The notes under the pieces were generated by a model. It was not told the origin of the DNA. It did no database searches and was given only the letters and a program-made list of their open reading frames with translations. This document shows positions 5,271-37,889 of a DNA stretch of 37,889 bases, piece by piece. Location of the stretch: positions 1 to 37,889 of IMG/VR virus record IMGVR_UViG_3300047585_000028; one strand, given 5' to 3'. The stretch is from a virus. The position numbers and the translations under genes were made by a program. Positions within the stretch are counted from its first letter, which is position 1; each line of letters starts with the position of its first letter.

Positions 5271-5786
5271 TCAACTCGCATCGTCATCGTTTTTGATCGA
5301 TCTGGCTGAATCGATAGCTATGACATTGCTTATATTCGATTCCAGCACTCTTCTTTCTGCGCGGTCTAGGCTACCTGAGATGTCTACGGTAACTTGGATA
5401 TCGTGTTGGAATTTAGGGCTATAGCGTTTTGGGTTTCGGTATTCGAGGATTTTCATAATGTTTGTGGAGAGTTGTTTGGCTGTATCTGAGTCATATCTAG
5501 TCGGCAGGTCTAGGAGCATATCTTCTAGATAGTCGCAGTAATCATTTCGAGCTGCTTCTAGTTTATCATTGAATTCGGGGAAGTTTTTGCGGTAGGTGAC
5601 GAACTCGTATCTGGAAAAACCTATGAGTTTAGAGATGTCTATGAGTTTACTACCCTCTAAGACCTTATCGAATATAACCTGTTCTTGTTCTTGAGATAGT
5701 CTAGTCGTTGATTTTCCAGCCATGATTATTTTTGCCTTGTTTTTGGGTGATTTGTAAACTAGAGGTTTGGGTAGGTTTTGGTCCAT
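5271..5786 (-). CDS. Terminase small subunit-like HTH protein
   Basis: 171 aa. After a basic N-terminus comes an HTH-like part (KLIDISKLIGFSRYEFVTY, about 49-67), then FPEFNDKLEAARNDYCDYLE and a C-terminal NPKRYSPKFQ. The order HTH, PEF-helix, K/R-Y segment resembles small terminase subunits, which recognise phage DNA and regulate the large subunit. The gene stands alone about 25 kb from the large terminase, which is unusual, so a transcriptional role is an alternative. The start is uncertain: neither ATG 5786 nor the in-frame ATG at about 5723 has a good Shine-Dalgarno. Confidence 0.5.
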   Translation of the reverse strand: MDQNLPKPLVYKSPKNKAKIIMAGKSTTRLSQEQEQVIFDKVLEGSKLIDISKLIGFSRYEFVTYRKNFPEFNDKLEAARNDYCDYLEDMLLDLPTRYDSDTAKQLSTNIMKILEYRNPKRYSPKFQHDIQVTVDISGSLDRAERRVLESNISNVIAIDSARSIKNDDDAS

Positions 5787-5928: not shown

Positions 5929-6858
5929 ATGAACTTTCATTTATTCAGCATGTTTTGGGGCGCTCACCATCTGGACCTATTCAAGCGAGCTTGTTTTAGG
6001 TCCATGAATTGGCCACTCAATCAAGCTAGTGTTCCACGTGGAACAAAGTGGAATATCTATACCAAGAGAGAGCACTTTGAGGAGCTAGACCAGCTATTTA
6101 AAGATTCACACTTCACTCTGCAGCTATTCGAGATGGGTGAGGCGATGAGGGTTGCTGGGTGTGGAATGGTTAAGACTAGCCAGTGTGATGGCGGGGTGGT
6201 GCTTTTAAATGGCTTACGTGACCAGATTGCTTATTCGATTCAGAACAAGTCTAAGATGCTTTTTTGCCCACCCGACACTGTCTTTGGCGATGGAACTATT
6301 CCTGGCCTTCTTGGGGTTGGCAGCGATCCTGGCACTTGTGTTTCTGTTGCTCATCCGCGTGTTCTTCCCGCTGTTATTGAAGAGATAGAAACGTTTGGTG
6401 CGACCCGTGGAGCTTTAACCAATCCGCAACTTGTTACACTGGCGATGAGATATGCGCATGATTCGTTTAAATTGGCGGAAATTGGTTGTGAGCGAAATAA
6501 TTCTTTCATCGGAGGGATTGCGTGGAAAGAGCTATCTCGTGGGCTTTATTCTATTCAACACCGCCTCCCTACGGTCTACCTGGCCTCGTTCAATGAAACT
6601 GATTGGGATTTCTGGTGGGGACAAGTTTCTTTTGGGGCTTGGGATCATAGATGGCCGGCTGAGAATCTTATCAGACAAGAGAGGCAACGCTATGTTGGAT
6701 CATCGGACGCGTGCTTCATAGTCGAGATCACAGACCGCGACAAGAACGTGCCCCCCGTGGCAGTGGATAATACGGCTCAGCCACCCGATTCTTATTGGAA
6801 TAATCACTATCATAATTCTATTAACCGGCAAGTAAACGTTATCTGGAGGGGTGAGTGA
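5929..6858 (+). CDS. Putative glycosyltransferase-like protein
   Basis: 309 aa, first gene of a rightward operon with two better-supported glycosyltransferases. The N-terminus (FSMFWGAHHLDLFKRACFRS) and a central LFCPPDTVFGDGTIPGLLG segment near residues 117-135 resemble glycosyltransferase-like proteins seen in sugar clusters, but I cannot point to a catalytic DxD with confidence. The C-terminal part is rich in Trp and Asn/His. The ATG at 5929 has no Shine-Dalgarno. Codons 34-39 contain a perfect 16-bp palindrome like parS. Functional call rests largely on context. Confidence 0.5.
   Translation: MNFHLFSMFWGAHHLDLFKRACFRSMNWPLNQASVPRGTKWNIYTKREHFEELDQLFKDSHFTLQLFEMGEAMRVAGCGMVKTSQCDGGVVLLNGLRDQIAYSIQNKSKMLFCPPDTVFGDGTIPGLLGVGSDPGTCVSVAHPRVLPAVIEEIETFGATRGALTNPQLVTLAMRYAHDSFKLAEIGCERNNSFIGGIAWKELSRGLYSIQHRLPTVYLASFNETDWDFWWGQVSFGAWDHRWPAENLIRQERQRYVGSSDACFIVEITDRDKNVPPVAVDNTAQPPDSYWNNHYHNSINRQVNVIWRGE
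6030..6045. promoter_or_regulatory. parS-like perfect palindrome
   Basis: TGTTCCACGTGGAACA is a perfect 16-bp inverted repeat. The chromosomal parS consensus is TGTTTCACGTGAAACA, and the CACGTG core plus both GTT/AAC arms are kept here. It lies within the coding sequence of the glycosyltransferase-like gene, as many parS sites lie within genes. The window also encodes a ParB-like protein at 723-1643. Whether that protein binds here is inference. Confidence 0.5.
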
Positions 6859-7724
6859 GTGAGAGACCATTTCGTGTGCTGATTGGGACACCGGCCGGTG
6901 GTGGCAACGTGTCTCTGCAGTATATGCTATCGCTATTTGATATCTTTCAAAAAGTCCATGACATGAAGAAGAACGTGTTTATTAGAAACAATCTTCGCAT
7001 CGGTAAAGAGCAGGGCCTTATCTCAGAGCACCAATTAGCTTATTTAAATCAACTAGAAGCAATGAATCTAGTGGATTATGAGATTGGTTTATATACTCTG
7101 GCGCAAGAATCTTTGCTTGGCCGTGGGAGAAATCACATTGCAGCCGTAGCCATAAGGCAGGGCTGGGATAAGCTATTCTTTATTGATGCGGACGCTAGGT
7201 TTACTTGGGATCAATTCAGATCCGTGCTTCATGCGCCTTATGACATCGTAGCCGGCGCGTGTCCTGTTAAGGTGTTGCCTATTTCGCTTAATTATTTGCC
7301 CTTTCAAGATGATGAGCACTTCTATAAAGACCGGATCAGGTCGGTGGATAGCCTTCTTAAGATGAGAGAAGGCCATAAGTCACAGTTTGTGCCTGTTGGG
7401 TTTATTGGGACTGCGTTTATGTGCCTATCTAGAAAGCTATTGCTAGCCTGTGCAGCTGAAACAGAAGAATATCAATATCCAAATCCAGCCACCGGACACC
7501 TTCACACCCATTGGGACATGTTCGATACCAAACCAATGTATAAAAAATACATGAGTGAGGATTGGAGCATGTGCGAGCGAGCCCGCAAGCTTGGTTTCCC
7601 AGTTATGCTCGACACCAATGTCATTATTTCACACGTAGGCAGTATGGTTTACACACCAGAGATGGCGCAAATCACGCATATACCTAAACAAGATGGCGTA
7701 TTTACAGATGGGATTGGCGCATGA
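6855..7724 (+). CDS. GT-A type glycosyltransferase
   Basis: 289 aa from GTG 6855, which follows GGAGGGGTGA and overlaps the previous stop. Residues 6-15 (FRVLIGTPAG) form a typical first strand. RGRN at 90-93 and the FFIDADARF stretch (DxD at 111 and 113) are the nucleotide-sugar and metal-binding pattern of GT-A enzymes of this kind. A late DWSMCERARKLGFPV segment (near 236) fits the acidic catalytic region seen in GT2-like proteins. It should transfer a sugar from a nucleotide donor; acceptor unknown. There is no signal peptide or membrane helix, so it is probably cytoplasmic. Confidence 0.8.
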   Translation: MSERPFRVLIGTPAGGGNVSLQYMLSLFDIFQKVHDMKKNVFIRNNLRIGKEQGLISEHQLAYLNQLEAMNLVDYEIGLYTLAQESLLGRGRNHIAAVAIRQGWDKLFFIDADARFTWDQFRSVLHAPYDIVAGACPVKVLPISLNYLPFQDDEHFYKDRIRSVDSLLKMREGHKSQFVPVGFIGTAFMCLSRKLLLACAAETEEYQYPNPATGHLHTHWDMFDTKPMYKKYMSEDWSMCERARKLGFPVMLDTNVIISHVGSMVYTPEMAQITHIPKQDGVFTDGIGA

Positions 7725-8437
7725 TTCTTCTTCCAACACTAAATAGGCCCCATTTACTAAAGCGATTCTTTGAGTCTTATAAGGCTACGAATGCGACAGT
7801 TGCTGGTTATGTGCTGATTGATCATGAGGATATGGCAAGGAATCGGGCAGAGTATGAAACGATTAAGATGGCGCATATGCCGGGTGATTGGATCATGCGT
7901 GATACTGGTTCTGCTGTTAGTATGGGTGATAAGTGCAGGTTCGTGTGGCGTGAGCTTTCAGATACGAACAAGTGGATTGGTTTACTCAATGATGACCATG
8001 TTTGCATAACTAACGAGTGGGATAAGCGTGCGGAAGAGATGCTTGACGGCACTAATATGCTTTCTACTAACGATGGCAGCTGGAACTTTGGCTATCGAAT
8101 AGTGGGCCTTACGGCCTGGTCTAAGCCCTTGCTTGATATTGCCAGGTTTCCTATTTTTCCTCGTAACCTGCAGCATTACTTTATTGATGATCTCTGGAAG
8201 GCGATAGGCGAATCGACTGGTTGCTGGCTTGAGACGATGAAGATCAACATCGAGCATAGGCATGTGCTAAATGGCAAGATGCTTGCTGATGATACGTTCC
8301 GCAAGGTCAATGACCCTAAAGCAAATCAGTATGACGAGAAAGAGTTTAAGCACTTCATGGAGCAGGATTTTAAGGATCTCTGTTTGAAGATCGTAGAGTT
8401 TAGATCTAAGCAAACGGCCGGGGCCAAGTTTGTATGA
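7721..8437 (+). CDS. Second glycosyltransferase-like protein
   Basis: 238 aa; ATG overlaps the upstream stop (ATGA). The N-terminus MILLPTLNRPHLLKRF is the classic opening of GT2-like enzymes, and LLNDDHV at about 88-94 provides the acidic motif equivalent to DxD. A GAxxD-like acceptor motif is not obvious. It is shorter than most full GT2 enzymes, so it may be a minimal catalytic domain. Tight coupling with the gene before suggests the two act on the same glycan. Confidence 0.7.
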   Translation: MILLPTLNRPHLLKRFFESYKATNATVAGYVLIDHEDMARNRAEYETIKMAHMPGDWIMRDTGSAVSMGDKCRFVWRELSDTNKWIGLLNDDHVCITNEWDKRAEEMLDGTNMLSTNDGSWNFGYRIVGLTAWSKPLLDIARFPIFPRNLQHYFIDDLWKAIGESTGCWLETMKINIEHRHVLNGKMLADDTFRKVNDPKANQYDEKEFKHFMEQDFKDLCLKIVEFRSKQTAGAKFV

Positions 8438-8742
8438 ACTATGTGAGGAAGATTAAGCGGTCCATAAAGAGTGAGATCGCCCGGGCTGAAGGAAGGCTTG
8501 GCAGGCCAAAGATGACGCCAGAAGAGCATTTAGGCAAGGGCCGGGGATTTGTCGAACCCCCCGTTGATAAGGTTTCTTACCAAGAGGCCCGCGAAGCCAT
8601 TATCCAGCTCTATGAGATCAAAGGACCAACCGCTGCAGAAGATTTGATTAGATCTTTCGGCGTCTATAGGCTATCAGAGCTAGATGAGAAGCATTATCAT
8701 TTAGTGGTTGATCGGGTCAGATCTAAGCTTAATCCGGCTTAA
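8434..8742 (+). CDS. Hypothetical protein with phage-type C-terminal helix motif
   Basis: 102 aa, overlapping the previous stop by four bases. The N-terminus is basic (RKIKRSIKSEIARAEGRLGR). The C-terminal half (AREAIIQLYEIKGPTAAEDLI, then FGVYRLSELDEKHYHLVV) follows a pattern I recall from several phage proteins: a helix, a G-x-x-A-A, then a short 'lsel...Y' segment. Its role is unknown. Its end overlaps the convergent RusA-like gene by 14 bases, leaving no room for a terminator. Confidence 0.7.
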   Translation: MNYVRKIKRSIKSEIARAEGRLGRPKMTPEEHLGKGRGFVEPPVDKVSYQEAREAIIQLYEIKGPTAAEDLIRSFGVYRLSELDEKHYHLVVDRVRSKLNPA

Positions 8743-9097
8743 AGATCCTGACTTTTACTCTCACTTCTTTTCTCGAGGCCTTTTCCCACTTAAACGTGGG
8801 GCTGCCGATGACGGATGGTTTATCATCGATGATGACCTTAGCCATCACCAGACCATCCATGACGTGTTTAAAGCTGCTGGCTAGGTTATCAAAGTCAGGC
8901 TCTCTGCTTGAGATCCTCGTAAACTCCAGCTCTGCTTTATGAAGCCTCATGTCAACAAGTCTATGATAAACGCATTGTTCAAGGACTAGGTACTTCCAGA
9001 GCTTGGCTTCTTTGGCTTTAATGGCCCAGTGCGCCCGGCCGATCTGGTTGATGGTTCTAGGCAGGCCAGAGATCTCAAACTCACCCACGAGGATCAT
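8729..9097 (-). CDS. rusA: RusA-like Holliday junction resolvase
   Basis: 122 aa, close to the ~120 aa of E. coli RusA. The key segment is EPDFDNLASSFKHVMDGLV with D68, D70 and K77, followed by IIDD (D91/D92). This matches the catalytic D70, D72, K76 and D91 arrangement known for RusA. The enzyme cuts four-way junctions as a dimer and would resolve recombination or replication intermediates made with the help of the ERF-like protein encoded 0.8 kb away. The start (ATG 9097) lacks a strong ribosome site and overlaps the upstream gene by 17 bases, suggesting coupling. Confidence 0.88.
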   Translation of the reverse strand: MILVGEFEISGLPRTINQIGRAHWAIKAKEAKLWKYLVLEQCVYHRLVDMRLHKAELEFTRISSREPDFDNLASSFKHVMDGLVMAKVIIDDKPSVIGSPTFKWEKASRKEVRVKVRIFKPD

Positions 9098-30649: not shown

Positions 30650-32218
30650 TCAATCAAAAACAATGTCCGAGTTCACGCCCTTGGCCTTGCGGTTTCCGCC
30701 AAACACAGATTTCTTCGCGGTGCGCCAATCTTTTCTAGAGATCTGGCAGTGGAATGTGACGGCCAGGGCGTCGGCGTTATCTGGCGATGGAAGGCTTCTT
30801 TTCTTCATCTTTTCCTTAGATTCAAGCTTCATCTTCTCTTCCCGGCCCATGAGCTCCCACTCCGGACCTACCAAATCTTCGCAAAGCTTTCGGTCCTCGT
30901 CGGACTCTTTTCCAAGCATCGCTCCACCCAGCCAGTCTCTCATTCTAGCCCATAGCTCTGTCCTATGGTCGTAGTACTGATCATCAGAGGCGGCCGATCC
31001 GAACTGGACCTCAAAGATCTTAAAGCCCATTTCCTTTAAGCGGTCTATGATGCCGGCACCGGCCCCTGAGTCGATAAATATTCCATCTGGATTATGCTTT
31101 TCAATAAGGTGGGCACACTTGTTTGCGACTTCCATATTGTCTGCACCCTTCATGACTACTGGAGGAATACTGCGGGCATCCCGGCCTTGTCGAAACCTGA
31201 TAACGGTTGAGTCATCTCCAAAACGCGCGGGATCGACTCCCATACATAGGGCAGCGTAATCATCGTAGCGCTCAAGTTGACGCTCATAGGCGTCAGCCAC
31301 AACTTCTCTTGAAATGAATTGCCGGTCGCCCTGCTTGGGAAACTCGCCCTTAACTTCAACGCGCGCTTCCCTGGAGTCTTCACCGTGCTTTTTAATGATT
31401 TCTTCATAGGTGTTCTGCGGGATCCCTTCTACCGTTCTGGCATCAATCTTTCTCGTTCTCCAAAACTCTCTGTGCTTGTGAAAACAATCGTAAAATGGAC
31501 CCGTGTTAGAGCGTGGGTTAGAAAACGTCAGAAAGAATTTGTAAGGAGTTTGCTCAGTGAATACGCCATCAGAGACGGTCCAGATAGGCTGTGGGATCCC
31601 GCTCGCCTCATCAAAGATTATAAGCTCACCATTCTCATTGTGAGCGCCGGCAAAGGCGTCCGGATTATCCTCATTCCAAAGCTCTCCCTTGATATACCAG
31701 TACTGAGAGTCAATCTTCCTAGCCTTCTTCATCCCGTCGCCCCACCAGGGAGCCGGGATAACGCCCTTTTGAAGCCTCTCAAACCAATAGGCATTTACAG
31801 CCATCGCTGCCCACTTGCCGATCTCTCCAAAGGTTTTATTGGTGAGCTGTGTGTCGGTATTGGCCGTGATGATGGTTGAGCTTCCAAGCTGACAAGACAT
31901 CATCCAAAGAGAAATGAAGGATACAAAGGCAGACTTTCCAGGCCCCCGGCCGGAGCTGATAGCAAGCTTATAGGTCTCGGTATCTTTACCGGCTAAGCGC
32001 CTAGCCTTATTTTCTTTAACGAACTGGGCAATGTTTAAAAGCTCTTCTTTTTGCCACTGCCTTGGACCCTTGACGCTTTCTAGGGGTGTGTTCTTTTCCC
32101 CCCAGGGAAACGCATACATCACCCAGGCGTAAGGATTATCTTTGATGTGAGGAGCAAGCATGTGCTCAATGAGCCGCTCTGTTTGCTTAGCCGCCGGTTG
32201 GTCCGCTTTCGTTGACAA
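30650..32218 (-). CDS. terL: Terminase large subunit
   Basis: 522 aa. ATPase: Walker A GRGPGKS at about 90-96, Walker B IIFDEA at 200-205 (D203/E204). Nuclease: GVDPARFGDDS with D329, GIFIDSGAG with D383, and NADALAVTF with D483, the usual acidic triad of RNase H-like terminase nucleases. It packages DNA into proheads through the portal. The start is TTG 32218, with GGGGAAG five bases upstream, and overlaps the upstream gene by 32 bases; a downstream ATG at codon 20 is the alternative. Confidence 0.95.
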   Translation of the reverse strand: MSTKADQPAAKQTERLIEHMLAPHIKDNPYAWVMYAFPWGEKNTPLESVKGPRQWQKEELLNIAQFVKENKARRLAGKDTETYKLAISSGRGPGKSAFVSFISLWMMSCQLGSSTIITANTDTQLTNKTFGEIGKWAAMAVNAYWFERLQKGVIPAPWWGDGMKKARKIDSQYWYIKGELWNEDNPDAFAGAHNENGELIIFDEASGIPQPIWTVSDGVFTEQTPYKFFLTFSNPRSNTGPFYDCFHKHREFWRTRKIDARTVEGIPQNTYEEIIKKHGEDSREARVEVKGEFPKQGDRQFISREVVADAYERQLERYDDYAALCMGVDPARFGDDSTVIRFRQGRDARSIPPVVMKGADNMEVANKCAHLIEKHNPDGIFIDSGAGAGIIDRLKEMGFKIFEVQFGSAASDDQYYDHRTELWARMRDWLGGAMLGKESDEDRKLCEDLVGPEWELMGREEKMKLESKEKMKKRSLPSPDNADALAVTFHCQISRKDWRTAKKSVFGGNRKAKGVNSDIVFD

Positions 32219-32480
32219 TGATCTTCCCCGCCTTGACGTTTTCTTCGTGTGCTAAGATCTCTGCCTTATGATCATGACACCACCTTAGAGCATCTTTCCA
32301 GTCATGGCCCTTAAAAGCAATAAGGTGTGCGAATTGAAACAGGAGCGGGTAGGGCTCAAGCTTTTTAAAGAGTGCCACATAATCGATAGAGATCTGCTGG
32401 CCCCGGAAATACTCGTCAATGGCCACTTTGCAGCGCTCAATCTGGATCTCTAGCTTTACGTCATCTTCTGTAAGGATCAT
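32187..32480 (-). CDS. Hypothetical protein upstream of terminase, 97 aa
   Basis: Starts with ATGA overlapping the upstream stop, after GAAGAGA. Helical and charged, with a Trp/His-rich part (FKGHDWKDALRWCHDHKAEI, about 57-76). It occupies the place where some phages have their small terminase, but I see no HTH and cannot call it that. It is probably translated together with the terminase it overlaps. Confidence 0.65.
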   Translation of the reverse strand: MILTEDDVKLEIQIERCKVAIDEYFRGQQISIDYVALFKKLEPYPLLFQFAHLIAFKGHDWKDALRWCHDHKAEILAHEENVKAGKIIVNESGPTGG

Positions 32481-32752
32481 GTCTCTTCGAAGATGTGAAC
32501 CATTCGAGAGCCAACCTCAGCTTTGTGCTCGAAGCTTCCTACATAGCTGGTCTTGTTCATCCGGTCTGAAATATCCTTACCCGCACCAACCATCACAAAG
32601 ATCCGCTCCATAGAGCGCTGGGTTGGATCGATGAGTGCCCAAAACCCCGGTCTATCGCCAACCAGTCCAAAGTGCAGGATCTCAGCATTAAAGGGAACAT
32701 CCAGTCTCTGCATGGGCTCTATCAAAAGATCAAAGCGTTTAATGATCTTCAT
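32477..32752 (-). CDS. DUF7352-like small protein
   Basis: 91 aa. MKIIKRFDLLIEP, then LDVPFNAEILHFGL and FWALIDP, then RIFVMVGAGKDI: this order of beta strands (P-x-x-A-x-I-L-H, W-A-L-x-D, G-x-G) resembles the small DUF7352 family common in phage genomes, whose function is unknown. It overlaps both neighbours by four bases (ATGA) and is embedded between the radical SAM gene and the terminase. Confidence 0.65.
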   Translation of the reverse strand: MKIIKRFDLLIEPMQRLDVPFNAEILHFGLVGDRPGFWALIDPTQRSMERIFVMVGAGKDISDRMNKTSYVGSFEHKAEVGSRMVHIFEET

Positions 32753-33882
32753 ATGAAGTTCAGATGCTCTGGCTTTTTGCCAAAAGGTTTCGCCACCGCA
32801 GCCCCCTTTTTAATGCCGTCCAAATACTCATTAACCTTGTGTTGCAAACAAATGGATCCACACATGCTCTGAGCATTGAAGTTCTCAGAAGCCAAATAGT
32901 TCACTACTTCCCAGTAGCGTTCTCCCTGGACCATTTCTTTAAAGCTCTCGTTAACGATGTTCCCAACGTGGAACTTTTTATATTGCTCGTTGAATAACAT
33001 CCCACAAGGAGCAACAAGCCCTGACCCAGAGATTTGTAAGAGGAAGGGTGGGCCATAGCACCTTTGATAGGAGCGTTTGCCCTTATCTCCAATCTTTGAC
33101 CATTTCGCACTAACTTGATACGCGTCCGTTGAGAGCGCTTCGGCTTCGTGCAAGACTTTGTATAATTCTTCATACCCTTCATAATTGACTCCTAGTGAAC
33201 CATCCTCGTCATCCGAGCAATGTTTAATTACTAAATAATCAGGTCCCAGCTCTTTTCCAAGCCGGGCAAGCGGCATGATCTGATCGCCAAACTCTGGCAT
33301 CAATACCATCTGGAGGCCAATGGTGCAAGAAAGGTTTAGCTCCTTCTTAACCCGAACCATTGTTCTAATGTTTTCACACACCTTCTCAAAAAATCCTTCA
33401 CGCACACCCATAATCTCTTGATAGCGCTTTGATTCGCCGGCCGTGATGTTATAGCGAAAATAAGTAAGGTGTGGGAGTATTGCTCTAATTCGGTCTTCGT
33501 CCAATAGATAGCCATTGGACCCAGACGCCATCGATATCCCTTTTGAAGCTCCGTACTGAATGGTGTGAACATAAGCCGGATTAAGAGTAGACTCGCCGTC
33601 AGATACAAGAGAAATTCCACGAACCCCAAGCTCAGCGGCGTCATCAATAAACCTCGTCATCACGTCTTTGGTAATCTTATAGCCCTGGTTGGTTTGCAAA
33701 ATGGCGTAGCAAAACTTACAGGCATAGTTGCATGTCTGCGTCAAAGCAAGATCAATGGTTATCGGTGCAATTCTCTCACCCCGCAGCCAGGCCTCAACGC
33801 GGTCATTGTGCCAGCCGATCTTTGTGCCATCGAGAATAAGCTTTTGAGTCAGGTCTGTGGCGAGGCTGGTGGGTTTTTCCAA
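32749..33882 (-). CDS. Radical SAM/SPASM-type enzyme
   Basis: 377 aa. C51, C55 and C58 (TCNYACKFC) are the CX3CX2C motif that holds the [4Fe-4S] cluster for SAM cleavage. SDGESTLNP near 93-101 is the GE motif. The C-terminus has further cysteines (RCYGPPF, PCGML, MCGSIC) as in SPASM-type domains with auxiliary clusters. The substrate is unknown; SPASM enzymes often modify peptides, while its sugar-gene neighbours suggest a sugar or surface-glycan substrate. The TTG start at 33882 follows AAAGGA and is embedded in the preceding gene by 34 bases. Confidence 0.88.
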   Translation of the reverse strand: MEKPTSLATDLTQKLILDGTKIGWHNDRVEAWLRGERIAPITIDLALTQTCNYACKFCYAILQTNQGYKITKDVMTRFIDDAAELGVRGISLVSDGESTLNPAYVHTIQYGASKGISMASGSNGYLLDEDRIRAILPHLTYFRYNITAGESKRYQEIMGVREGFFEKVCENIRTMVRVKKELNLSCTIGLQMVLMPEFGDQIMPLARLGKELGPDYLVIKHCSDDEDGSLGVNYEGYEELYKVLHEAEALSTDAYQVSAKWSKIGDKGKRSYQRCYGPPFLLQISGSGLVAPCGMLFNEQYKKFHVGNIVNESFKEMVQGERYWEVVNYLASENFNAQSMCGSICLQHKVNEYLDGIKKGAAVAKPFGKKPEHLNFI

Positions 33883-34163
33883 AGCACATTCCTTTGCTTT
33901 CGTTTGTTCTTATCCTCAAGCGGCTCAAGCCTTAAGTCAATCGGCCGCTTTTCCATGAGCTGTAACATCCGCTCTAGCTTTATCATATTCCTGCCAAAGT
34001 CAGGATGATTAGGGCTCTGGTCATATTCCAGCATCCACCTAAACCCCTTTGTGTGGATAATCTTTACGTCATCCTGAAGGCCTAAAAGCTTGCAGCATTC
34101 TTTTAGAGACTGCTGATGCCTTTCGTTTCGCTCTTCTAAGATCTGAGCACTTTCCTCACGCAT
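33849..34163 (-). CDS. Hypothetical protein between aminotransferase and radical SAM genes
   Basis: 104 aa, charged and helical at the start (MREESAQILEERNERHQQSL), with FRWMLEYDQSPNHPDFGRNM in the middle and a basic C-terminus. It overlaps the aminotransferase stop by eight bases and the radical SAM start by 34. It is not recognised. The close overlap on both sides suggests it belongs to the same pathway. Confidence 0.65.
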   Translation of the reverse strand: MREESAQILEERNERHQQSLKECCKLLGLQDDVKIIHTKGFRWMLEYDQSPNHPDFGRNMIKLERMLQLMEKRPIDLRLEPLEDKNKRKQRNVLWKNPPASPQT

Positions 34164-35268
34164 GCATAAACTCTCTCACCTTATCAATCGCAAAGTCTTG
34201 CTCTTCGCGAGAAAGGTGCTCATCCACCGGCAAGCTTACCACCCGGCCGGCCTGCTTATAGGCCACCGGGAAGTTTTCCCTAGAATATCCCATGTGCTCT
34301 AAGACTCCCTGAAGTGGGATCGGATAGTGGACCTTTGCCTCAATCTCGTTGTGGTTTAGGAATTTGACCAGATCATTTCTGATCATCTGGTCTACCTCAA
34401 ACATGTAGAGATGAAAACACTGCTTAACATGGAGCCTGCGGGGGGCGATGTAGATTCCTTCAATGGCATTAAGCTTTGAATCGTAGTAAAGAGCATTCTC
34501 CCGGCGCCTGCCGGTGGTCTGCCTCGTCTCACCGATCAGATAGTTTCCAACAATGGCCTGAAGGCTATCAAGCCTTGAATTGCATCCAAAGCCTGCAATC
34601 TCATCCCGGTTCTTTAGGCCGTGATTTCGATATAGCCTGATCTTATCGTAAAGGGCCTTGTCGTTGGTAGCGATCATTCCTCCGTCACCCCAGACATTCA
34701 GATTCTTTAGCGGGTGAAGCGAGAAGGCTCCCGTTGCGCCAAAGGTGCCGGCATATTTTCCCTTGTATTCCGCAAGCACTCCCTGACAGGCGTCTTCGAC
34801 TACGGGAATGCCGTGTTTGTTTGCCACATACATAACCTGATCCATTTCGACCGGCTCTCCAGTGAAATGGACTGGCACAATGGCCTTTGTTCTTGGAGTG
34901 ATGGCTTCTTCGAGAAGATCAGCGTCCATTGTGTACCAAGGTGCCATGTCAATAAAACTAGGAGTAGCAAATAGCTCATCGACCGCCCCAGCAGAAGCCA
35001 CAAAGGTGTTTGCTGCTGTAATGACCTCATCCCCAGGCCTAACGCCAACAGCCCGCAGGCCCAGTTTAATAGCGTCAGTCCCGTTAGCAACACCAATAGC
35101 ATACTTGGCTCCAATGAGTTGAGCGAACTTCTCTTCAAACTCCTCAACCATAGGTCCTAGCGTAAACTGTCCATTGGTTAAAAGAGCTTTCATGTTTTCA
35201 TAAATCGGATGGCCTGGCTCCAGGCATCCTTCAAACTTCTGCGGCAGATAGCTATAGCGGACCTTCAC
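34156..35268 (-). CDS. DegT/DnrJ/EryC1/StrS-family aminotransferase
   Basis: 370 aa; GTG at 35268 with AAGGAG upstream, overlapping the epimerase stop. GTDAIKLGL (63-71) binds PLP phosphate, VVEDACQG has D159 and Q162, and FSLHPLKNLNVWGDGG carries the PLP lysine K188. These enzymes transfer an amino group from glutamate to a nucleotide-linked ketosugar, giving amino sugars such as perosamine, viosamine or 4-amino-4-deoxyarabinose. Here the ketosugar could come from one of the two adjacent NAD-dependent enzymes. All catalytic residues are present. Confidence 0.92.
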   Translation of the reverse strand: MKVRYSYLPQKFEGCLEPGHPIYENMKALLTNGQFTLGPMVEEFEEKFAQLIGAKYAIGVANGTDAIKLGLRAVGVRPGDEVITAANTFVASAGAVDELFATPSFIDMAPWYTMDADLLEEAITPRTKAIVPVHFTGEPVEMDQVMYVANKHGIPVVEDACQGVLAEYKGKYAGTFGATGAFSLHPLKNLNVWGDGGMIATNDKALYDKIRLYRNHGLKNRDEIAGFGCNSRLDSLQAIVGNYLIGETRQTTGRRRENALYYDSKLNAIEGIYIAPRRLHVKQCFHLYMFEVDQMIRNDLVKFLNHNEIEAKVHYPIPLQGVLEHMGYSRENFPVAYKQAGRVVSLPVDEHLSREEQDFAIDKVREFMHA

Positions 35269-36224
35269 AAACCCAGCTCCTTCATTTGCTTGATATTGCT
35301 ATAGATGGGATTATTCATCGGGTCCTTCAGGTTTGGCAAATTGAATTGAATGCTTTGAATGGCCGTGGCGATTTCGTGCGCAGGAGCAAAGCCAGCCTCC
35401 ATAATTTTATCTGAGTTAACGCGGTAAGATCTAGTGTCTAGAGTCTTTTCGAAGCTCATGACGGCCTGTTGGTCAATTAATGCCCTTACGGTTGTCCCAA
35501 TTTCTATAAGGCTTAGATTCTCAAAGCCAACATTAAAGATCTGCTGATCAATAGCCCTCTCGTCAGCATTTAGAATAAAATCATAAGCCCCTACCATGTC
35601 CAAGATATTTATGTTGGGTCTCGTCTGATCTCCACCAAATATCCGAATGTGCCTATTGACCAGGGCCTGGATCGTTAGGATGTTCACCACCAAATCAAGC
35701 CTCATTCTTGGCGCATATCCACAAACAGTAGCAGGCCTTAAAATTGTCCAAACGCCGCCCATGCCGTAGGTTTGAAGCTCAATCTCACAGGCAAGCTTAT
35801 ATTTAGAATAATAGGTAAGTGGATTCTTTTGAGTGTCTTCGGTCACCTGCTTAAGATCAGAAACGCCATAGACGCTTGAAGAGGAGGCATAAATGAACCG
35901 GCCAACGTTCTTTTCTTGAAGAATCGTGAGCATGTCTTTAAAGCAAGCAAAGTTGATGCTTCTTCCTAGATCAGGATTCATATCAAAACTTGGATCATTG
36001 CTCACGCAGGCTAGGTGTATCACTGCGTCTTGGCCACTAAAGGCTGTTCTTAGGGTAGCCCTGCTTCTAATATCACCCACTAGTTTTCGAAGGTTTGGAT
36101 GTGCAGCAAGATGGTCGCCAAACCAGAAGGTGTCTAGGACCGTTACTTCGTGCCCCTTTTGTAATAGGATGGGAGAGAGAGCTGAACCCACATAGCCGGC
36201 CCCTCCAGTAATACAGATTTTCAT
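35265..36224 (-). CDS. NAD-dependent nucleotide-sugar epimerase/dehydratase
   Basis: 319 aa extended-SDR protein. GGAGYVGS at 7-14 is the NAD-binding glycine motif; VIHLACVSND follows; IYASSSSVYG gives the catalytic Ser; Y139-x-x-x-K143 (TYYSKYK) is the active-site pair. ILRPATVCGYAPRMR and LDMVGAYDFIL complete the family pattern. Enzymes of this class oxidise and epimerise, reduce or dehydrate nucleotide sugars; exact substrate unknown. Start and stop overlap both neighbours by four bases. Confidence 0.9.
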   Translation of the reverse strand: MKICITGGAGYVGSALSPILLQKGHEVTVLDTFWFGDHLAAHPNLRKLVGDIRSRATLRTAFSGQDAVIHLACVSNDPSFDMNPDLGRSINFACFKDMLTILQEKNVGRFIYASSSSVYGVSDLKQVTEDTQKNPLTYYSKYKLACEIELQTYGMGGVWTILRPATVCGYAPRMRLDLVVNILTIQALVNRHIRIFGGDQTRPNINILDMVGAYDFILNADERAIDQQIFNVGFENLSLIEIGTTVRALIDQQAVMSFEKTLDTRSYRVNSDKIMEAGFAPAHEIATAIQSIQFNLPNLKDPMNNPIYSNIKQMKELGL

Positions 36225-37222
36225 AAGTGTTTAAACCAAATTTCCGTAGCCTTTGCGATTGTCTCTGGAGTCCATAGAGGAGCGTCTTTGTAGTCATCGA
36301 GATGCCTGCGCAATTCTAAAACACCATCCTCAATCGCCATTGTGGAATACCAGCCTAGCATATCTTCAATGGCCTTTGTGTCGGCAAGAGTGACATCTGG
36401 TTCACCCGGCCGCTTAGGGATATGAATCGTGTTTCCCCCCAGTAGCTTTGCTAGATAATTGATCTTTACGGTTCGTCTGCTACCTACGTTTAGCGCCAGG
36501 CCGCTATAGTTTGAATTAGCGGCCCTTACGAAGGCATCCACCACATCGGTCACATACGTGAAGTCCCGCTCCTGATTGCCGTCTCCAACAACCGTAAGAG
36601 GCTTTCCATGAGCTAGTTGAGAAAGAAAAGTGCCAAACACAGCGCCGTAAGTGCCATTAGTCCGAGCTCTAGGACCATACACGTTGAAAAGACGGAGCGA
36701 GAGAGCAGGTAGCTTGTAAACCTTTGTCCAATGCATGACATACTGTTCTCCTATATATTTGGTTAAGGCATAAGGATACATGGGCCTTAATTCGGCCGTC
36801 TCTGATGTGGGAAATTTGTCTGGAATGCCGTAGCAAGATGATGAGGCTGCGTAGATGAATCTCTTGGCCCCAAGTGTTCTGGCGGCCTGAAGAACAGATA
36901 TTGTTCCCGTTACGTTAGTGTAATGATAGTCAACCGGCCTTTCAATGGACGGCACAATGTCGGCCTTGGCAGCAAGATGAAAAATCCAGTCAACCTTAGA
37001 CAATTCCGCATAGGACATCTGGTGAATCCAGCGCTTCAAATCCCCTGTGACCGAGCAGCCTTCCATAAAAAGAAACCGTGGCGACAGGATGCAAGCCTTT
37101 AGGTTCTTTAGACTGCCGCCGGAGAGATCATCAAGCCCAACCACCTCATGGCCATCAGCAATAAGCCTCTCGCAAAGGTGGCTCCCGATAAAGCCTGCGG
37201 CTCCAGTCACTAAACACTTCAC
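36221..37222 (-). CDS. UDP-glucose 4-epimerase-like NAD-dependent enzyme
   Basis: 333 aa from GTG 37222, chosen because it lies just after AGGTGAT and starts directly at the first beta strand; a TTG ten codons earlier (37252) is also possible. GAAGFIGSH at 7-15 binds NAD, YAASSSCYG has the catalytic Ser region, and Y151-A-L-T-K155 is the YxxxK pair. RLFNVYGPRA and GDGNQERDFTYVTDVVDAF are typical of GalE/WbpP-like epimerases. It is the first gene of the late operon, about 50 bases from the divergent isomerase gene. Confidence 0.9.
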   Translation of the reverse strand: MKCLVTGAAGFIGSHLCERLIADGHEVVGLDDLSGGSLKNLKACILSPRFLFMEGCSVTGDLKRWIHQMSYAELSKVDWIFHLAAKADIVPSIERPVDYHYTNVTGTISVLQAARTLGAKRFIYAASSSCYGIPDKFPTSETAELRPMYPYALTKYIGEQYVMHWTKVYKLPALSLRLFNVYGPRARTNGTYGAVFGTFLSQLAHGKPLTVVGDGNQERDFTYVTDVVDAFVRAANSNYSGLALNVGSRRTVKINYLAKLLGGNTIHIPKRPGEPDVTLADTKAIEDMLGWYSTMAIEDGVLELRRHLDDYKDAPLWTPETIAKATEIWFKHL

Positions 37223-37240
37223 GTCATCACCTGATTCCTT

Positions 37241-37269
37241 TTGACTTATCAATCCACCGTGTCGTTAAT
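37241..37269 (+). promoter_or_regulatory. Candidate promoter for the SIS-domain gene
   Basis: TTGACT (37241-37246) and GTTAAT (37264-37269) are 17 bases apart, matching consensus at five and four positions. The ATG follows five bases after the -10, so the transcript would be leaderless or nearly so. No Shine-Dalgarno precedes this ATG. Confidence 0.35.
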
Positions 37270-37274
37270 TTGTT

Positions 37275-37889
37275 ATGGCAAACGATATCCGCGATCGCAA
37301 CCAATATTTTAAGCACGAAGAGATCCACGCGTATTTAAAGCAATACACTGGAGCCCTGGCTAACGCACTAAACAAAGTTGACTACGATGAGCTCCAAAGA
37401 GCCAAAGATCTTATGAGGATAACTCAGGCTAGAAATGGCCGGATCTTCGTAGGCGGCAACGGCGGATCTGCGGCTATCGCGGATCACCTGACTTGTGATT
37501 TTGTAAAGGGAACATACTCTGAAAAAAGACCAGCCCTTAACGTCCAATCCTTAGTTGGAAATCAAGCACTTCTTACGGCCATAGCCAACGATCTTGGGTA
37601 TGAGCACATCTTCTCCTGGCAGCTCTTGGCCGCAAGAGTCTGTGGAAACGATCTTCTAATCCTTATTTCTTCATCTGGTAATTCAGCCAACATAATCGAT
37701 GCCACAACAGTGGCCCAATCCAGGGGGTGCCCAGTAATCGGTCTTACTGGCTTTGATGGTGGAATGCTTCATAAACTAGCAAATTCCAAGCTCCATGTGC
37801 CATTTAATAACTACGGCATCGTTGAGGATTGTCACCAGGCTATCATGCACATTTTAGCTCAATTCAACTACCAGAGTTACCATGCTAAA
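37275..37889 (+). CDS. gmhA: GmhA-like phosphosugar (heptose) isomerase, open at window edge
   Basis: 205 codons visible, no stop, so the C-terminus may be incomplete; E. coli GmhA has 192 aa, so little is missing. SIS domain: VGGNGGSAAIADHL (59-72), ILISSSGNSANIIDA (129-143), and a VEDCHQAIMHIL segment (183-194) that holds the catalytic Glu and His of GmhA. GmhA converts sedoheptulose 7-phosphate to heptose 7-phosphate, the first step to ADP- or GDP-heptose. It is transcribed away from the sugar cassette but only about 50 bases from it. Confidence 0.85.
   Translation, partial: MANDIRDRNQYFKHEEIHAYLKQYTGALANALNKVDYDELQRAKDLMRITQARNGRIFVGGNGGSAAIADHLTCDFVKGTYSEKRPALNVQSLVGNQALLTAIANDLGYEHIFSWQLLAARVCGNDLLILISSSGNSANIIDATTVAQSRGCPVIGLTGFDGGMLHKLANSKLHVPFNNYGIVEDCHQAIMHILAQFNYQSYHAK

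Follow-up and report, generated by a model that had tools for sequence, protein, structure and literature searches.

The question raised by IMG/VR virus record IMGVR_UViG_3300047585_000028, whose entire linear sequence of 37,889 bases forms the window analysed here, is what a set of sugar-type enzymes, a radical SAM enzyme among them, does in front of the gene for the large terminase subunit (TerL). The answer that we consider probable, with moderate confidence, is that these genes are the half left at the end of the record of a mobile, phage-borne glycosylation system, which would make a nucleoside diphosphate (NDP)-sugar, tailor it, in part with a two-carbon unit, and attach it to a glycan of the virion or the host. 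Our best reading of the product is an activated higher-carbon deoxy or amino sugar, possibly two-carbon-branched, made for virion or host glycans. The sugar pathway is conserved, being common to phages and bacteria; it is apparently undescribed and its product seemingly unreported. Much of the evidence comes from comparison with a sibling phage, IMGVR_UViG_3300032893_000102.

Gene organisation in front of the terminase

On the minus strand the genes run in the order SDR1, SDR2 (both short-chain dehydrogenase/reductases, SDRs), the aminotransferase DegT, a 104-residue open reading frame (ORF) termed u104, the radical SAM gene, ORFs of 91 and 97 residues and finally TerL, with successive overlaps of 4, 4, 8, 34, 4, 4 and 32 base pairs (bp). 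The gene for a GmhA-like isomerase is divergent from this chain, and its frame is still open where the record ends; the likely start of SDR1 is a GTG near 37222, which leaves a gap of about 50 bp to the isomerase start.

37275-37889, plus strand: SIS-domain sugar-phosphate isomerase, GmhA-like (Pfam SIS_2, 1e-19; 205 residues read, 204 in the sibling)
36221-37252, minus strand: SDR1, a GalE/LegB-like sugar-nucleotide epimerase/dehydratase dependent on nicotinamide adenine dinucleotide (NAD) (Pfam Epimerase, 2.6e-61; YxxxK present)
35265-36224, minus strand: SDR2, sugar-nucleotide dehydrogenase/epimerase (Pfam Epimerase, 9.2e-35; best solved relative 6vo6)
34156-35268, minus strand: DegT/DnrJ/EryC1/StrS sugar aminotransferase (Pfam DegT, 1.4e-98; pyridoxal phosphate lysine K188; best solved relative 3uwc)
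33849-34163, minus strand: u104, which in bacteria forms the C-terminal domain of the radical SAM partner and here stands alone (bacterial partner profile)
32749-33882, minus strand: radical SAM enzyme (Pfam Radical_SAM, 2e-15; SPASM, 5.8e-6; CxxxCxxC)
32477-32752, minus strand: small phage gene of 91 residues (DUF7352 in Pfam, phrog_3848 in PHROG), in the overlap chain and outside the pathway
32187-32480, minus strand: 97-residue ORF, not a pathway member, kept in the sibling at 40%
30650-32218, minus strand: TerL, last gene of the overlap chain (PHROG_2, 1e-36)

A first-pass annotation of this DNA had proposed a nucleotide-sugar cassette ahead of the terminase gene, with four of its sugar-type enzymes co-linear with the terminase by overlaps; the ORFs are where it placed them, profiles confirm their families, and the proposal of such a cassette is supported. 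It had also suggested that the two short genes among them could be pathway parts. This holds for 33849-34163, which encodes the C-terminal domain of the protein that partners the radical SAM enzyme in bacteria, but 32477-32752 is instead a phage gene outside the conserved pathway, and two small phage genes thus separate the radical SAM gene from TerL. A search for the DUF7352 family over the relatives gave zero matches, even in the sibling where tblastn detects the gene, and is hence uninformative.

The catalytic residues are intact in SDR1, SDR2 and DegT. Both SDRs are of the extended type, with the Gly-rich NAD motif, the Ser-rich strand and YxxxK all present, whilst DegT scores 331 bits against a Pfam cut-off of 19.8 and its K188 is shared by every one of the 94 aligned members that have a residue at that position.

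A pathway cut by the end of the record

The sibling phage has the same gene order, the divergent isomerase included, with identities to the window of 60-79% for the cassette enzymes and 51% for the isomerase; since the entire order is kept, the arrangement is not due to chance. Beyond the isomerase the sibling continues with E1-alpha (PF00676, 3.6e-44), E1-beta (PF02779, 8.5e-27) and a CTP_transf_like+PfkB gene, an HldE-like fusion of a nucleotidyltransferase and a PfkB kinase. The window shows half a pathway because the record ends at the isomerase: the record end cuts a larger system, and about half of a ten-gene pathway lies within the window. Adjoining the HldE-like gene of the sibling (contig L021, 1640-3278) are a JAB (PF14464) gene and a ThiF (PF00899) gene, which as a pair recall ubiquitin-like conjugation systems and are preceded by a 316-residue gene without a Pfam match.

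Another related phage, L003, carries DegT, SDR2 and SDR1 on one strand and the isomerase, E1-alpha, E1-beta, u104 and the radical SAM gene on the other; PHROG profiles identify its large terminase, which nevertheless has no tblastn-detectable similarity to the TerL of the window. A more distant relative, L007 (TerL 51%, portal 58%), lacks the cassette and has a small terminase gene preceding TerL. Among 50,697 phage records, a DNA search with the whole cassette found no match and tblastn with the radical SAM proteins found matches of only 20-31%, so that the sub-family occurs in no annotated phage there.

The pathway in bacteria and phages

When genomes and contigs were scanned for the radical SAM family, relatives turned up at 266 bacterial sites, of which 80 were kept, and on about 40 viral contigs. 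In many bacterial phyla the radical SAM gene heads a recurrent set consisting of SDR1, a nucleotidyltransferase, a PfkB kinase, a GmhA-like isomerase, SDR2, E1-alpha, E1-beta, two DegT enzymes and a partner of about 350 residues, and loci from SAR116, Azospirillum, Rhodoplanes and Eremiobacterota hold a nearly complete set in a single run. The counts among the 80 bacterial loci are lower bounds, since contigs end: at least 67 have the partner, 55 PfkB, 54 E1-alpha, 51 DegT, 49 the nucleotidyltransferase, 48 SDR1, 38 SDR2 and 37 GmhA.

Of 38 viral loci, 36 have an enzyme dependent on thiamine diphosphate (ThDP) close to the radical SAM gene; it resembles the E1 component of pyruvate dehydrogenase (PDH) in 30 of them and acetolactate synthase in six, and no locus has both types. 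When bacterial and viral loci are pooled, the two types are mutually exclusive but for a single locus holding both (Fisher P = 1e-8, the loci not being independent), and on the L004 contig a transketolase-like pair, seen on reading the ORFs, takes the place of the usual types. The phage subunits are shorter than the bacterial ones, with medians of 191 vs 363 residues for E1-beta and 230 vs 329 for E1-alpha. Two-carbon branches on sugars are made by ThDP enzymes of the AviB1/AviB2 type (PMC4425429) and of the YerE type (PMC4753412). As both ThDP types found here match these two-carbon-branching types, the product sugar may, by analogy, bear a two-carbon branch.

On the radical SAM tree the viral sequences need six label changes, of which at least three are forced by starred branches (by a quick method, with long branches present), implying that phages gained the family repeatedly or passed it back. 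Another radical SAM paralogue, distant at 25-30% identity, is present as a second copy in L104, L106, L107, L114 and L128, in the bacterial loci L047, L059 and L080, and in others; loci with it have DegT less often (Fisher P = 0.02), as if these were alternative tailoring routes. At L006 7690-9978 a second radical SAM gene has its CxxxCxxC motif split by an in-frame intein-like insert, with a Cys start and an HN end before Cys, and within the insert an ORF in a different frame (8114-8950) is homing endonuclease-like in appearance.

The radical SAM enzyme and its partner

The CxxxCxxC cysteines C51, C55 and C58 are invariant in 62 aligned members of the radical SAM family, and the C-terminal auxiliary-cluster cysteines C275, C293, C341 and C345 are at least 90% conserved among them; the SPASM domain scores 26.9 bits against a cut-off of 21.5. 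When the structure model (predicted local distance difference test, pLDDT, 93.6) was compared with 999 chains, the best match was DesII (Z 25.6, root-mean-square deviation 3.9, 339 residues), with BlsE second closest (Z 24.9). Sequence-profile matches include DesII (7e-11) and BtrN (1.7e-9), the latter a carbohydrate enzyme that the auxiliary-cluster region also matches. Against the DesII equivalog TIGR04426 the score is 30.5 bits, below the cut-off of 450. Because DesII, BlsE and BtrN act on sugars, sugar nucleotides or nucleosides and aminocyclitols, fold and profile favour a sugar as the substrate of the radical SAM enzyme. The remark in the first-pass annotation that a SPASM-type radical SAM enzyme is unusual in such a cassette is borne out, with a sugar as its likely substrate.

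In desosamine formation the DegT-family enzyme DesI installs the amino group that DesII later removes. The adjoining position of the DegT and radical SAM genes suggests, by analogy, a similar amination-deamination in the cassette, the known action of DesII being to take off an amino group (PMC11434129).

Searches of the 104-residue u104 ORF against Pfam, PHROG and NCBIfam gave no match. The profile of the bacterial partner, in contrast, finds u104-like genes in 14 distinct phage contigs, which have kept them upstream of the radical SAM gene, mostly as its immediate neighbour. The matches cover only the C-terminal fifth to quarter of the partner model (positions of about 263-361 out of 364) and always stand alone, the partner measuring about 333-350 residues in bacteria vs 104 in the phage; a domain fused in bacteria has thus become stand-alone in phages. 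Of 76 pairs from bacteria and viruses, 65 have the partner gene no more than 300 bp from that of the radical SAM enzyme. A structure model of the bacterial partner (pLDDT 92) has an IscU/SufU-like middle domain (residues 111-242; Z 11.6, profile E 0.0013), absent from the u104 of the window, and a small alpha/beta C-terminal domain that is RbfA/KH-like at a modest Z of 8.2. For comparison with the three cluster-binding cysteines of IscU/SufU, the majority consensus of the partner shows one Cys in the IscU-like region. A fold search of BFVD with the partner model returned nothing significant. The winged-helix recognition element of ribosomally synthesised and post-translationally modified peptides (RiPPs) was considered for u104 and not seen, the region aligning to RbfA/KH-like small domains. 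What the phages keep of the partner is thus the domain that would probably contact the radical SAM enzyme.

Probable glycosyltransferases and the possible destination of the sugar

Three further genes, gt1 to gt3 (5929-8437), stand near the other end of the window:

5929-6858, plus strand: gt1, glycosyltransferase-like, a presumed cognate transferase (in G001, G002 and G026)
6855-7724, plus strand: gt2, DxD-containing, glycosyltransferase-like (phrog_1574, of unknown function; in G001 and G002, with one distant match in G016)
7721-8437, plus strand: gt3, glycosyltransferase (phrog_14945; in G001 and G002)

They keep the same order in the phage of the window and its two nearest relatives, the sibling and the L003 phage, and these three form one radical SAM clade (SH-like approximate likelihood ratio test 98). 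Beyond these three, gt1 occurs in one of 24 other cassette phages tested, gt2, weakly, in one of 24 and gt3 in none of 19. The three genes are co-inherited with the cassette even in G002, whose terminase has no detectable similarity to that of the window. A search of gt1 against Pfam and PHROG found no match, and a relative of it (30%) adjoins the radical SAM gene in the bacterial locus L044. The genes gt1 to gt3 are likely to encode the transferases for the pathway product.

The surroundings of the bacterial pathway are rich in glycosyltransferases and methyltransferases. FliD, recognised by family match or by cluster, adjoins the pathway in four loci (L047, L075, L085 and L086), and L047 has a Maf protein there as well; these flanked loci are likely flagellar glycosylation islands. 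It is possible that the product sugar goes to virion or host surface glycans.

Elsewhere in the window there is a small-terminase-like gene (5271-5786; phrog_1482, 2e-6), 25 kilobases from the large terminase, and an ORF that by eye is ParB-like (723-1673).

Timing of expression

The first-pass annotation had the sugar made when virions are assembled. Since the minus-strand overlap chain runs to TerL, co-expression of SDR1 to the radical SAM gene with the packaging genes is likely. In L123, L124 and L126, which are relatives by portal, a run of kinase, isomerase, E1-alpha, E1-beta and radical SAM genes lies between the portal and a scaffold/protease-like gene, and this independent placement inside the head operon favours co-expression with late genes; in L005 the radical SAM gene comes before the portal and capsid genes. 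Against late timing stand a scan of the operon for sigma-70 promoters and terminators, which found fewer promoters than in shuffled sequence and nothing usable, the position of half of the pathway on the opposite strand (the isomerase, to which the sibling adds its ThDP pair and its HldE-like gene), and the convergent terminase of L003. Late expression is therefore plausible, but its assignment to virion assembly was over-read.

Proposed pathway and related systems

For the substrates and the order of the steps we infer the following scheme. The GmhA-like isomerase and HldE-like kinase/nucleotidyltransferase would produce an NDP-activated sugar, probably a heptose, which SDR1 and SDR2 would oxidise or epimerise to a keto sugar. 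DegT would aminate the keto sugar, and the ThDP enzyme would move a two-carbon unit to it from a 2-oxo acid. The DesII-like radical SAM enzyme, docked by u104, would then remove or rearrange a group by deamination, deoxygenation or dehydrogenation, and gt1 to gt3 would attach the product to a virion protein or host surface glycan.

The combination of a DegT-family aminotransferase with a radical SAM enzyme, whose best fold match is DesII, recalls DesI/DesII of thymidine diphosphate (TDP)-desosamine formation. Unlike that system, the cassette has a radical SAM enzyme that falls outside the DesII equivalog and possesses a set of auxiliary-cluster cysteines, as well as a ThDP enzyme and a dedicated partner, and its sugar is probably not a TDP-hexose. 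A PDH-E1-like pair or an acetolactate-synthase-like ThDP enzyme within a sugar pathway is shared with AviB1/AviB2 (avilamycin), Pau11/Pau12 (paulomycin) and YerE (yersiniose) (PMC4425429, PMC4753412). However, those belong to hexose or pentose pathways of antibiotics or O-antigen, whereas the present set also includes GmhA/HldE-like and radical SAM genes, and the ThDP genes are known from the sibling and other phages, beyond the record of the window.

The best solved relative of SDR2, 6vo6 (1e-31), is presumably Cj1427 of Campylobacter jejuni. The modification of guanosine diphosphate (GDP)-heptose in C. jejuni, with its Cj1427-type C4-dehydrogenase, resembles the proposed pathway in its keto-heptose chemistry (PMC10680097), but it uses GDP-heptose without a radical SAM or ThDP enzyme, whilst the kinase and nucleotidyltransferase here are of the HldE type. 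Pelagimyophages also encode rfaE and radical SAM enzymes close to their genes for host recognition (PMC7029224), although no pathway is drawn in that study, and the phages here are podovirus-like and carry the cassette within or next to the packaging and head genes. Apart from that paper, no literature was found on a phage radical SAM-heptose pathway.

Weighing the alternatives

Several observations weigh against the reading as a glycosylation system. The ThDP, kinase and nucleotidyltransferase genes lie outside the record, and their presence in the phage of the window is presumed from the sibling and the clade-mate L003. Both gt1 and gt2 are without a family assignment as glycosyltransferases. 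Many phages have radical SAM and ThDP genes without DegT and SDRs, so that amination followed by deamination in the DesI/DesII manner is not a general feature. In E. coli GmhA a Glu and a His are catalytic; the isomerase keeps the second of these positions (His187), but its Asp75 aligns to the Glu, as does an Asp in 46 of the 51 family members with a residue there, and it scores 111 bits against the GmhA equivalog TIGR00441, below the cut-off of 209. It belongs to a GmhA-like sub-group in which Asp occupies the place of the catalytic Glu, and its specificity for sedoheptulose is not secure. Finally, SkfB (2e-11) is the best sequence-profile match of the radical SAM enzyme, and in fold the peptide maturases SkfB (Z 23.7) and SuiB (Z 23.3) follow closely, within about 2 Z of DesII.

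These last matches, together with the SPASM-type C-terminus and, in L005 and L126, the position of the radical SAM gene directly next to those for capsid or portal, would suit an enzyme that modifies a peptide or protein, such as a virion protein, with u104 as its recognition domain and the sugar genes as incidental neighbours. We regard this as unlikely: on sufficiently long contigs the radical SAM gene is always accompanied by sugar or ThDP genes, the top structural matches are sugar-nucleotide or nucleoside enzymes, with the auxiliary-cluster region matching BtrN, the frequent neighbours (ORFs of at least 70 residues) include no conserved precursor peptide, and the u104 region is unlike the winged-helix RiPP element. 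To a similarly low degree we credit an ordinary heptose cassette for lipopolysaccharide (LPS), with which the phage would boost or alter the heptose supply of its host without new chemistry. The GmhA- and HldE-like genes are classical enzymes of adenosine diphosphate (ADP)-heptose formation, and the rfaE and radical SAM cassettes of pelagimyophages have been read as host LPS modification (PMC7029224), but the most constant members of the present set, namely the ThDP enzyme, the aminotransferase and the radical SAM enzyme, are not required for ADP-heptose synthesis, and the isomerase is of a divergent sub-group. Least probable by some way is a supply of sugar for hypermodified phage DNA bases, with gt1 to gt3 as DNA glycosyltransferases. 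Phages do make DNA sugars, as reported for Shewanella phage Thanatos, and the gt genes are co-inherited with the pathway; however, neither a nucleotide hydroxymethylase nor a gene for base modification was noticed in the window, the neighbours of the homologous bacterial clusters are surface-glycan and flagellar genes rather than DNA genes, and the cassette is placed among head genes.

A phage-borne glycosylation system hence remains our preferred interpretation. In a bolder form, held tentatively and with well below even confidence, it would be an undescribed pathway of bacteria and phages to an activated two-carbon-branched deoxy or amino heptose, built on a module of ThDP enzyme, radical SAM enzyme and dedicated IscU-like partner, which phages have shrunk to the parts minimally needed for catalysis, placed in the packaging and head gene blocks, combined with glycosyltransferases of their own and put to use in virion glycosylation.

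Implications

Sugar genes of phages are usually read singly as 'LPS modification', whereas in this case they can be assigned to an entire conserved pathway. In the literature searched no description was found of its core of radical SAM enzyme, ThDP enzyme and partner, the bacterial counterpart of which stands in flagellar-glycosylation and surface-glycan contexts. The small protein u104 seems to be the minimum accessory domain for the radical SAM enzyme, and the product of the pathway is testable. A set of phages is thereby available for asking whether virions bear a glycan of their own making.

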